From NCBI RefSeq assembly GCF_018881575.1, contig NZ_JACVQB010000001.1:358986-422985 (forward strand): a DNA stretch of 64,000 bases, written 5' to 3'. The notes beneath the pieces are model-generated. The model had not been told where the DNA came from, made no database searches, and saw nothing but the letters and a program-made list of their open reading frames with translations. The stretch's first letter is position 1, and each line of letters starts with the position of its first letter. Below are positions 39,805 through 42,769 of this stretch, in pieces. Position numbers and translations under genes: made by a program. The stretch is from Polynucleobacter sp. UK-Kesae-W10. GTDB lineage: Bacteria; Pseudomonadota; Gammaproteobacteria; Burkholderiales; Burkholderiaceae.

Positions 39805-39853
39805 GTTTTTTTCGTCGTCGTCAATGTAGTACGTTTTTTACCTAGGAGGGTAT

Positions 39854-41203
39854 ATGGAATTTGAAATGTTAGATCAAGAAACAGCTGGCAAAACCATTAT
39901 TAAAGTGGTTGGAGTTGGTGGGGCTGGTGGTAATGCCGTCCAACACATGATCCGTCGCGGAGTGAATGGCGTAGAGTTCATTTGCATGAACACCGATGCA
40001 GGCGCGTTACAGCGTTCTGAAGCATCTGTGAATTTGCAACTGGGCTCTAGCGGGTTAGGTGCTGGTGCAAAACCAGAAATCGGTGCTGCTTCTGCTGAAG
40101 AAGCGCGCGCTCGTATTGCAGATACATTGCAAGGTGCCCACATGGTATTTATTACCGCTGGTATGGGCGGTGGCACAGGTACTGGAGCAGCGCCAATTGT
40201 TGCTCAGGTTGCAAAAGAGATGGGTATTTTGACAGTTGGCGTAATTAGTAAGCCGTTTGACTTTGAGGGCGTAAAGCGTCTTAAGGTTGCTGAAAATGGT
40301 GCGGCTGAGCTCGAGTCTTATGTAGATTCATTGATCGTGGTTCTCAATGAAAAACTCTTTGAAGTGATGGGCGAGGATGCTGAGTTTGATAAGGCATTCG
40401 CATGCGCTGATGATGTATTGCACAATGCCGTTTCTGGAATTGCAGAAATCATCAACGTTCAAGGTTTGATTAACGTCGACTTTGAAGATGTGAAGACGGT
40501 GATGGGCGAGCAAGGTAAAGCGATGATGGGAACGGCGACTGTTTCCGGTATGGATCGTGCACGCTTGGCTGCAGAAGCTGCTGTTGCATCACCATTGCTC
40601 GAGGGCGTAGATTTATCTGGCGCTCGCGGTGTATTAGTCAACATCACTGCTAGCCGTTCATTGAAGTTATCTGAAACTCGCGAAGTGATGGCTGCAATCC
40701 GTGGTTACGCTGCAGATGATGCAACAGTGATTTTCGGTACCGTATATGACGAGAGCTTAGGCGATGCATTGCGCGTTACTGTCGTTGCGACTGGTTTAAA
40801 TAATCCACAAGCACGTAAGGCAAACCAACCAGAGGTAGTTTGGAGACAAGCTACTGGTACGCATGATGCAATGCCAACTATGGCTGATCTCAATAGTTTT
40901 GCTCCTGCCAGCGCATCTGCTGCAATTAGTAAAGTAAGCTTGGATTCAGCTTTGGGTACTAGCGCTGGTATGGCATCGATTGGGTCTGCAAGTGCACCGG
41001 CAATGCCGATGCAAGCAGCACAACCTGCAGCTGGTGGCGTTGATTACAGTCAGTATGACTTGCCGCGGGTTTTTCGTAGCTCTCGTGAAGCGACTCCTGC
41101 GCCTACCTTAGGTGCGGATAGCTCTCCTCAAGCAAAAACCTTGCTTGATAAAGGGGCTGATTACTATGAAATCCCAGCGTTTTTACGTAAGCAAGCAGAT
41201 TAA
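39854..41203 (+). CDS. ftsZ: Cell division protein FtsZ
   Basis: FtsZ is the tubulin-like GTPase that forms the Z ring. [14 protein letters not shown], the tubulin signature GGGTGTG at 105-111, and the synergy-loop [11 protein letters not shown] with catalytic Asp are all present. A variable linker (about 335-430) leads to the C-terminal peptide [11 protein letters not shown], the docking site for FtsA and, by analogy, ZapD, also encoded in the window. The ATG has AGGAGGG 5 nt upstream, a much stronger site than ftsA, fitting the higher level needed for FtsZ. Length is 449, long because of an Ala/Ser-rich linker. Confidence 0.98.
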
Positions 41204-41217
41204 TTGACTGCTTAATA

Positions 41218-41307
41218 CAATAGGTGATTGCGAAATGCCGGCGCGGCGCCCCTCCGGACGACGAATCCCGCGCTTGCGTTGGCATGCTTACTAACGATTA
41301 CCTATTG
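41218..41307 (+). ncRNA. Candidate structured leader RNA upstream of the peroxiredoxin gene
   Basis: The ftsZ-peroxiredoxin gap can fold into one long hairpin. Helix P1 pairs 41218-41230 with 41295-41307 (13 bp, two G-U). After an internal loop, helix P2 pairs 41235-41246 with 41274-41285 (12 bp, four G-U), then 3 more pairs after a bulge. The apical loop 41250-41269 contains CCTCC, complementary to the gene's own ribosome-binding site GGAG (41307-41310). An alternative inner stem GCGCGG/CCGCGC (41241-41246 with 41268-41273) competes with P2. No T-run follows, so it is not an ordinary terminator. Confidence 0.5.
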
Positions 41308-41315
41308 GAGACGCC

Positions 41316-41816
41316 ATGATTGCTGTTGGACAAAAACTACCAAATGCCACTCTTTATGAATTTTTTAATGAAGAGACAGAAGGGTGTGCATTAGGACCAA
41401 ATGCATTTGAAGTTGACAAACTTGCAGCTGGCAAAAAGATTGTTATCTTTGCCTTGCCTGGCGCATTTACCCCAACCTGCTCTGCCAAGCATGTGCCAGG
41501 ATACGTTGAACACTTCGATGCTATTAAAGCAAAAGGTGTCGATGAGATCTGGTGCATTTCCGTAAATGACCCATTTGTCATGGGCGCTTGGGGACGTGAT
41601 CAAAAGGTCGGTAAAAAAATTCGCATGCTAGGTGATGGCAGTGCCGAGTTCACTAAAAAAGTAGGTCTCGAGTTGGATTTAACCGCTCGCGGATTTGGTG
41701 TTCGCTCAGACCGTTATGCCATGATTGTGGAAGACGGCGTTGTAAAGAGCTTAGATCGCGAAGCTCCTGGCAAGTTTGAAGTGAGTGATGCGGCATCGAT
41801 CCTCAAAAAATTATAA
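41316..41816 (+). CDS. Peroxiredoxin (Prx5/AHP1 type)
   Basis: This thiol peroxidase reduces hydrogen peroxide or organic peroxides, probably with glutathione, glutaredoxin or thioredoxin as donor. The peroxidatic cysteine is C55 in PGAFTPTCSAKHVPGY, the Prx5 signature; further cysteines at about 24 and 81 could resolve it, but which is used cannot be told. Length 166 fits the family. SD TTGGAGA lies 5-9 nt before the ATG and is adjacent to the structured leader. It sits between ftsZ and lpxC, which is a usual place for it in related bacteria. Confidence 0.93.
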   Translation: MIAVGQKLPNATLYEFFNEETEGCALGPNAFEVDKLAAGKKIVIFALPGAFTPTCSAKHVPGYVEHFDAIKAKGVDEIWCISVNDPFVMGAWGRDQKVGKKIRMLGDGSAEFTKKVGLELDLTARGFGVRSDRYAMIVEDGVVKSLDREAPGKFEVSDAASILKKL

Positions 41817-41854
41817 TTTTTTAATAAGCGCCCCCTGAATTTAGAGATGTCATC

Positions 41855-42769
41855 ATGATGAAGCAAAGAACCATTGCAAGCCCTGTGAAAACAGTGGGTA
41901 TTGGTTTGCACTCTGGCCGCAAGGTGACTATCTCTATTAAGCCAGCCCCAGTGAATTCAGGGGTGCAATTTGTACGTGTAGATACTCCGGAGCAGTCACT
42001 TGTTCCGGCCACCGCTCTAGCGGTCTGTGACACTAGGCTTGCCTCGGTAATTCAAAAAGATGGTGTGCGAGTTTCTACGGTAGAGCATTTGCTTTCAGCC
42101 TGCGCTGGCCTTGGCTTAGATAACTTATTGATAGAGCTTGATGGTGAAGAAGTGCCCATCATGGACGGCAGTGCAGCTTCCTTTTTGTTTTTAATTGAGT
42201 CAGCCGGCATCATCGAACAAGAAGCGCCACGTCAGTTCCTAGTGATTAAAAAGCCGGTCGAAGTGAAAGACGGAGACAAGCTTGCGCGTCTTGAACCATT
42301 CTTTGGATTTAAATTAGATTTCACGATTGATTTCAAGCATCCTGCAGTGGACAAGACTGGCCAACGATTTGTTGTAGATTTTGCAGAACATGCCTACCGG
42401 AGTGAAATCGGTCGAGCACGCACTTTTGGTTTTGCTCACGAAGTTGAAGCGCTCAGAGAGATGGGGCTTGCTCGTGGTGGTAGTTTAGATAACGCGATTG
42501 TTTTGGATGAGCACCGGATTCTGAACAATGAAGAATTGCGTTACGAAGATGAGTTTGTGCGTCACAAAATTCTGGATGCCATTGGGGATTTATATTTAAT
42601 TGGCCATCCCATTGTCGGAGCTTATGTTGCCGAAAAATCAGGCCATGCCTTAAATAATGCGCTCTTACGTAAACTTTTAGAAGATCCAAGTTCTTACGAA
42701 ATTTGTGAGTTTGCTGAAAACAAGGCCCCTGAAGCCTACTCTCAAGAAAATCAGCCCCTCTTCTTTTAA
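41855..42769 (+). CDS. lpxC: UDP-3-O-acyl-N-acetylglucosamine deacetylase LpxC
   Basis: LpxC performs the committed step of lipid A synthesis. Zinc ligands are visible: H78 in STVEHLLSA, and His and Asp in [15 protein letters not shown]. The N-terminus [19 protein letters not shown] and the motif [17 protein letters not shown] are typical. Length is 304. No strong ribosome-binding site precedes ATG 41855 or the ATG one codon on. It ends 8 nt before the convergent dciA gene with no terminator between them. Confidence 0.98.

Follow-up and report, generated by a model that had tools for sequence, protein, structure and literature searches.

The region studied here lies within a 64,000-nucleotide stretch of Polynucleobacter sp. 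UK-Kesae-W10 DNA (the window) and has the gene order ftsZ, a gap that holds a hairpin, the adjacent peroxiredoxin gene (prx) and then lpxC (Table 1). A previous sequence-only reading of this DNA had described a hairpin with two helices and a 20-nt loop carrying CCTCC in this gap. Folding placed it exactly there, with an outer helix of 13 bp and an inner helix of 15 pairs plus one bulge. The minimum free energy is -41.6 kcal/mol (z -2.55) and 2 of 200 shuffled sequences were equally good. That the prx Shine-Dalgarno (SD) GGAG starts on the last pair of the outer helix is correct for this species, but in other clades the SD lies off the helix end. Neither a sigma-70 promoter nor an intrinsic terminator was called in the ftsZ-prx gap; a conserved TACAAT is without a -35 and overlaps the helix. 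A small ORF in the hairpin (ATGCCAGCG...) was rejected, its frame not being kept across species. Single-base indels were read in the gaps of L025, L031 and L168 with the loop letters unchanged, and reading frames through the hairpin differ between clades while the loop letters stay the same.

Table 1. Features of the ftsZ leader and the ftsZ-prx gap, given as positions of the window.
Feature	Position	Strand	Basis
ftsZ leader (ftsA-ftsZ gap), upstream target TTCGTCGTC	39811..39819	+	conserved island; unique with GGAGG in genome
Downstream target, ftsZ SD GGAGGG	39845..39850	+	sequence comparison
ftsZ, 449 aa	39854..41203	+	TIGR00065, 376.5 bits
Whole hairpin, PBC-28-3-like element, 3' of ftsZ	41218..41307	+	fold, covariance model, core motif
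Outer helix 5' arm, CAATAGGTGATTG	41218..41230	+	fold; arm-swap test
Inner GC-rich helix 5' arm	41235..41249	+	fold; covariation
Apical loop, 20 nt, with CCCTCC	41250..41269	+	fold
Loop half 1, CCCTCC, predicted antisense to ftsZ SD GGAGGG	41250..41255	+	CCTCC invariance; clade matching
Loop half 2, GACGACGAA, predicted antisense to TTCGTCGTC of the ftsZ leader	41257..41265	+	9 bp complement
Inner helix 3' arm, bulge 41274; first part also in GCGCGG/CCGCGC register	41270..41285	+	fold; covariation
Outer helix 3' arm	41295..41307	+	fold; arm-swap test
prx SD GGAG, 4-nt complement to loop	41307..41310	+	sequence
Peroxiredoxin (prx), Redoxin family, 166 aa, adjacent gene	41316..41816	+	PF08534, 130.5 bits

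Using a covariance model we found the hairpin in 147 of 151 Polynucleobacter genomes, with one strong match each. Three of the other four genomes have no prx match and in the fourth prx lies at a contig end; every Polynucleobacter genome with an intact gap carries one hairpin copy there. No confident match of the model was obtained in 337 other Burkholderiaceae. A DNA search at E<=1 reached 128 of the 151 genomes, the weakest of these matches being chance. From 201 loci in which the whole gap between ftsZ stop and prx start was readable we drew 122 distinct gaps: the core CCTCC-N(0-10)-GACGAC is present in 122/122, and CCUCC and GACGAC of the loop are both kept throughout (122/122). Covariation of the helices in homologous gaps, proposed earlier as a check, was indeed found for both of them. 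Among 40 divergent sequences both-sided changes occur at 13 of 16 inner-helix pairs, and 91.2% of the inner-helix cells are paired, compared to 77.4% in shuffles and 24–47% when slid. For the outer helix, indels made MAFFT column counts unusable and an arm-swap test was used instead: own arms gave -12.3 and swapped arms -9.9 kcal/mol, and none of 5000 permutations was as good. Taken together, conservation, covariation and the arm-swap results exceed chance by far, and we therefore conclude that the hairpin is an RNA structure under selection. A dispersed, MITE-like repeat, named earlier as the main alternative, can be set aside, since a genome-wide search gave a single copy and the hairpin is always situated in the ftsZ-prx gap across the genus. 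A terminator-like T-run follows the hairpin in L220, L223, L072 and L227-L235 and is absent from the main clade.

Sequence comparison predicts that the loop is antisense, in two parts, to the region where translation of ftsZ begins and not to prx. Loop half 1 (CCCUCC) complements the ftsZ SD over 6 bp, loop half 2 complements UUCGUCGUC (39811-39819) over 9 bp, and both halves stand in the correct antiparallel order relative to their targets in the ftsZ leader. Across species the GACGACGA(A) loop half corresponds to a UUCGUCGUC-type leader site about 5–40 nt upstream of the ftsZ SD, and a GTCGTC-type site together with GGAGG is present in 105 of 107 rows of genus ftsZ leaders, counting leaders read far enough. 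Upstream of the SD the ftsA-ftsZ gap shows TTCGTCGTCGTCAA in the main and mid clades, GTCGTCGTCAA in the cosmopolitanus clade and GTAGTCGTCAA in kasalickyi and most of the L227-L235 group; in L096 TCGTCGTC lies immediately 5' of TAGGAGG. The target letters and GGAGGGTATATGG form conserved islands in the main-clade ftsZ leader. Searching this genome for the two-part target TCGTCGTC-N(3-33)-GGAGG returned ftsZ only, and the target occurs in 59 of 61 genus genomes, usually at ftsZ only. By eye we noticed a hairpin between the two target sites in mid-clade ftsZ leaders; the extra stem-loop seen there in G120, G104, G127, G110, G054 and G068 (L312-L319; ATCGG..CCGAT; CTCGGCTATT/AATAGTTGAG) would draw the two sites together. 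In Limnobacter (L090, L097, L101) GATAGGA of the ftsZ leader complements TCCTATC of the ftsZ-prx gap.

The longest Watson-Crick match between the GACGAC segment and its own leader has a mean of 8.8 nt over the genus; after shuffling of the leaders the mean is 4.3 nt, and the highest mean among 200 shuffles is 4.5. Observed matches include CCCTCC/GGAGGG in the near clade, CCTCCTA/TAGGAGG in G015, TTCCTCCAA/TTGGAGGAA (9 bp) in the L227 clade and TGACGACTACT with AGTAGTCGTCA (11 nt) in G078. CCUCC complements any strong SD and half 1 alone is therefore unspecific; it is matched to the ftsZ SD by clade, however (P 0.002; 0.0085; 0.013). Exact permutations with one value for each of nine clades gave P 0.013 for the SD half, P 0.12 for the GACGAC half and P 0.009 for both jointly, the GACGAC half being non-significant on its own because the core is invariant. 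The 3' motif is thus complementary to the SD region of its upstream gene above chance. In a naive energy calculation the duplexes amount to -10.3 and -12.8 kcal/mol (total -23.1) and opening of the sites costs 4.1 and 2.3 kcal/mol (about 6.5), leaving a net of about -16.7 kcal/mol with loop and kissing-loop penalties excluded.

The hairpin had been put forward as novel, which its resemblance to a published motif contradicts. It is very likely PBC-28-3 (RNA Biol 2021; PMC8632094), matched by the description in the text and not by the consensus figure, because the core is found at only one of the eight AhpC/TSA genes of this genome, namely this prx. That description counts 21 examples of PBC-28-3, located 5' of genes for AhpC-like peroxiredoxins with the start codon adjacent, and gives the motif a long covarying stem and a loop that is highly conserved and contains pyrimidine stretches. 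Motifs of the same paper that also bear the number 28 are from Beta proteobacterium CB, a Polynucleobacter relative. Our element shares the Polynucleobacter-related genome, the AhpC-like prx directly downstream in the same orientation, the adjacent start codon and likewise the stem and loop characters. No Rfam family matched in the window at gathering score, in 41150-41400 at E<=1 or in the loci of 17 relatives; Polynucleobacter-1 RNA (RF01718), which is in Rfam, was considered and has no match here. PBC-28-3 was published as a cis-regulator of prx with protein binding suggested and its function unexplained, and complementarity to the ftsZ leader is not mentioned in the motif's description (PMC8632094). 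Within the literature searched, ftsZ as pairing partner and the recurring hairpins of other genera, described below, appear to be new.

The protein-binding suggestion, made from the 21 published examples in the motif's description (PMC8632094), would make the hairpin part of a prx leader in which an unknown protein reads the pyrimidine-containing loop. A protein site, however, needs neither complementarity to two sites of the ftsZ leader nor variation with them from clade to clade, and we regard this explanation as unlikely. Even so, the loop-leader pairing could be helped by a chaperone, for instance Hfq or ProQ.

We judge it rather improbable, too, that the element is a cis leader of prx, in which loop CUCC pairs with the prx SD, or the helix hides it, and two folds switch Prx translation. 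The hairpin is always located upstream of prx and co-oriented with it in Polynucleobacter, and in this species the prx SD sits at the helix base. Yet the pairing of loop CUCC with prx GGAG, proposed earlier as regulatory, extends over 4 bp only, and its probability in the nested fold is about 1e-13. Swapping prx SDs between species revealed no matching by clade (P 0.50; 0.19). The core is up to about 120 nt away from the prx start codon (about 80–120 nt in the P. cosmopolitanus clade), and none of the 7 other AhpC/TSA genes of the genome carries it. The invariant GACGAC has no partner near prx and is not explained by this model. The redox, temperature or metabolite switch once proposed for prx is left without support. 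The conservation of prx GGAG itself is ordinary, because the ftsZ SD is equally invariant (all element-bearing gaps, all ftsZ leaders). From the idea of a leader RNA we thus retain a conserved covarying structure that is not a repeat, but not the prx SD as partner of its loop. At lpxC (window 41835-41855) a GGAG Shine-Dalgarno was seen in 0 of 103 Polynucleobacter loci, unlike at ftsZ and prx.

Two further observations bear on prx. In one clade the prx SD has a possible pairing partner at the beginning of the gap: just after the ftsZ stop L227, L231, L233 and L235 carry CCTGT or CCTTTT, which change jointly with the prx SD (ACAGG/AAAAGG), so that hiding of the prx SD may take place in this clade only. 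The second is the competing stem GCGCGG/CCGCGC of the sequence-only reading, which does exist and dominates partial transcripts in folding (P 0.95–0.99), in favor of a switch, but is less stable by about 6.6 kcal/mol when the complete gap is folded. At the variable pair of this stem we counted G-C 75 times, A-T 14 times, G-T 3 times and A-C never. The dominance in partial transcripts and the absence of A-C at the R-Y pair of GCGCRG/CYGCGC hint that folding follows an ordered path, though in no clade but the main one. As a conserved switch the two-register stem was rejected, since it is confined to the main clade and independent changes are too few for significance.

We also analyzed ftsZ loci from Burkholderiaceae genera and other families, counting a hairpin between ftsZ and lpxC as strong if its stem had at least 11 bp. 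Counting hairpins outside the prx coding sequence, 28 of 69 loci, from 15 of 40 genera, have a loop antisense to their own ftsZ SD over 6 nt or more, and the longest complement in other genera reaches 10 bp. The sense-strand control gave 0/69, the same scan against other SDs gave 1/29 for ftsA, 1/31 for prx and 0/60 for lpxC, and no genus-level swap was as good in 20000. A control by complement without reversal was uninformative because GGAGG is mirror-symmetric. Outside Burkholderiaceae the broad scan alone, at 7 nt or more, gave 5 of 20 and was not clearly above the sense control with 3 of 20. Loops and SDs differ among the loci: the loop is TGCCTCC in L342, L344-L346, L348, L350, L351, L353 and L354, GCCTCCGT in L356, L357 and L364, TGCCTCCGT in L343 and L373, TGGCCTCC in L383 and TGCGTCC in L382, while loop/SD pairs are GTGCCTCCGT/ACGGAGGCAC in L347 and L366, CTGCCTCCT/AGGAGGCAG in L372, where the stem is bulged, and TCCCCTT/AAGGGGA in L376 and L377, where the ftsZ SD itself differs. 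The latter two loci show a tandem hairpin pair at about +26 and +72 after ftsZ, both with CCCCTT loops facing the unusual SD AAGGGGA. Matches in g10 and g13 (TCCGTCAA) were discarded as they fall within the prx coding sequence.

The hairpin follows prx in g10, g12 and g17, and prx was not detected next to ftsZ in the g8, g11, g15, g16, g20 and g25 loci; with the hairpin beyond prx or prx absent, the constant partner is therefore ftsZ and not prx. In L344-L346, L351 and L354 the anti-ftsZ-SD hairpin lies about +850 to +885 after ftsZ, between prx and lpxC, and may belong to the lpxC leader or to a separate small RNA. With regard to PBC-28-3 the hairpins of other genera may be convergent rather than homologous. 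It seems to us an evenly balanced proposition that RNA feedback on ftsZ is widespread in Burkholderiales, with a hairpin that closes the division cluster and shifts in sequence and position, a loop tuned to the ftsZ SD of the same genome, loop and target rebuilt together in each lineage, and a second, conserved contact gained in Polynucleobacter.

A trans-acting anti-SD sRNA with many targets, ftsZ being one among them, would agree with CCUCC loops being able to pair with any GGAGG and with the location of the hairpin beyond prx, away from ftsZ, in Burkholderia-type genera. The GACGAC half, however, has a conserved partner at ftsZ only, and loops of other genera match the flanks of the ftsZ SD past GGAGG, so we hold this explanation to be as improbable as a cis leader of prx. 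A terminator or 3'-end stabilizing hairpin of the ftsZ transcript acting without regulatory pairing is extremely unlikely: in some divergent clades (L220, L223, L227-L235) the hairpin is followed by U-runs, but the main clade has none, no terminator was called and such a role would not require an invariant loop. A role of the loop as mimic or antisense of rRNA was considered and not adopted.

The explanation we consider probable, judging from the complementarities, is that the hairpin loop serves as a bipartite antisense of the ftsZ initiation region and gives RNA feedback on ftsZ. CCUCC of the loop would pair with the ftsZ SD and the GACGAC half with the upstream leader site; this pairing would block 30S binding on ftsZ and thereby lower FtsZ synthesis, resulting in negative feedback. 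It could take place in cis, by a kissing contact between the 5' and 3' UTRs of a single ftsZ mRNA, or in trans, if the 3' region of ftsZ gives rise to an RNA fragment or an sRNA. Structure, conservation and covariation, complementarity, specificity in the genome and clade matching are read from sequence; pairing in cells, repression rather than stabilization and the choice between cis and trans are what we infer. Cis action fits Polynucleobacter. In B. cenocepacia no ftsZ-BCAL3456 co-transcript was obtained by RT-PCR (PMC7761207), and as the hairpin also lies beyond prx in Burkholderia-type genera, cis action cannot hold everywhere; in B. cenocepacia a processed RNA or action in trans may apply.

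The amount of FtsZ helps to set the timing of division, and to our knowledge the RNAs described as controlling ftsZ are mainly sRNAs whose genes lie at other loci, such as DicF and DinR. If feedback on ftsZ is true, the hairpin beside the gene would serve as an intrinsic measure of ftsZ mRNA, and the orphan motif PBC-28-3 would gain a function, its target moving from a peroxide-defence gene to a central division gene. The co-varying pairs across many lineages make this idea directly testable.

The predicted arrangement resembles several described systems. In S. aureus the 3' UTR of icaR mRNA contains an anti-RBS motif, UCCCC, which blocks translation by pairing with the RBS of that mRNA (PMC7821165). 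As in icaR, a 3' motif is complementary to the SD of the upstream gene, the pairing here being predicted from sequence. The icaR element, however, is a single short motif whose conservation does not extend to sister species, and described bacterial 5'-3' UTR pairings are poorly conserved between species in general (reviewed in PMC7821165), whereas the bipartite hairpin loop is found genus-wide and belongs to a division gene that is essential. OppZ and CarZ of V. cholerae are RNAs from transcript 3' ends that pair with their own mRNA and inhibit translation (PMC7398697); these are RNase E-processed, Hfq-dependent sRNAs with experimental proof, while our hairpin is known as a sequence. The sRNAs DicF of E. 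coli and DinR of Klebsiella act as antisense at the ftsZ ribosome binding site and lower FtsZ (PMC10907235), and the predicted target of the loop is the same site. Both, however, are encoded elsewhere (in a prophage and at the dinI 3' end, respectively) and tied to other signals (PMC10907235), whereas the hairpin described here is encoded beside ftsZ itself.
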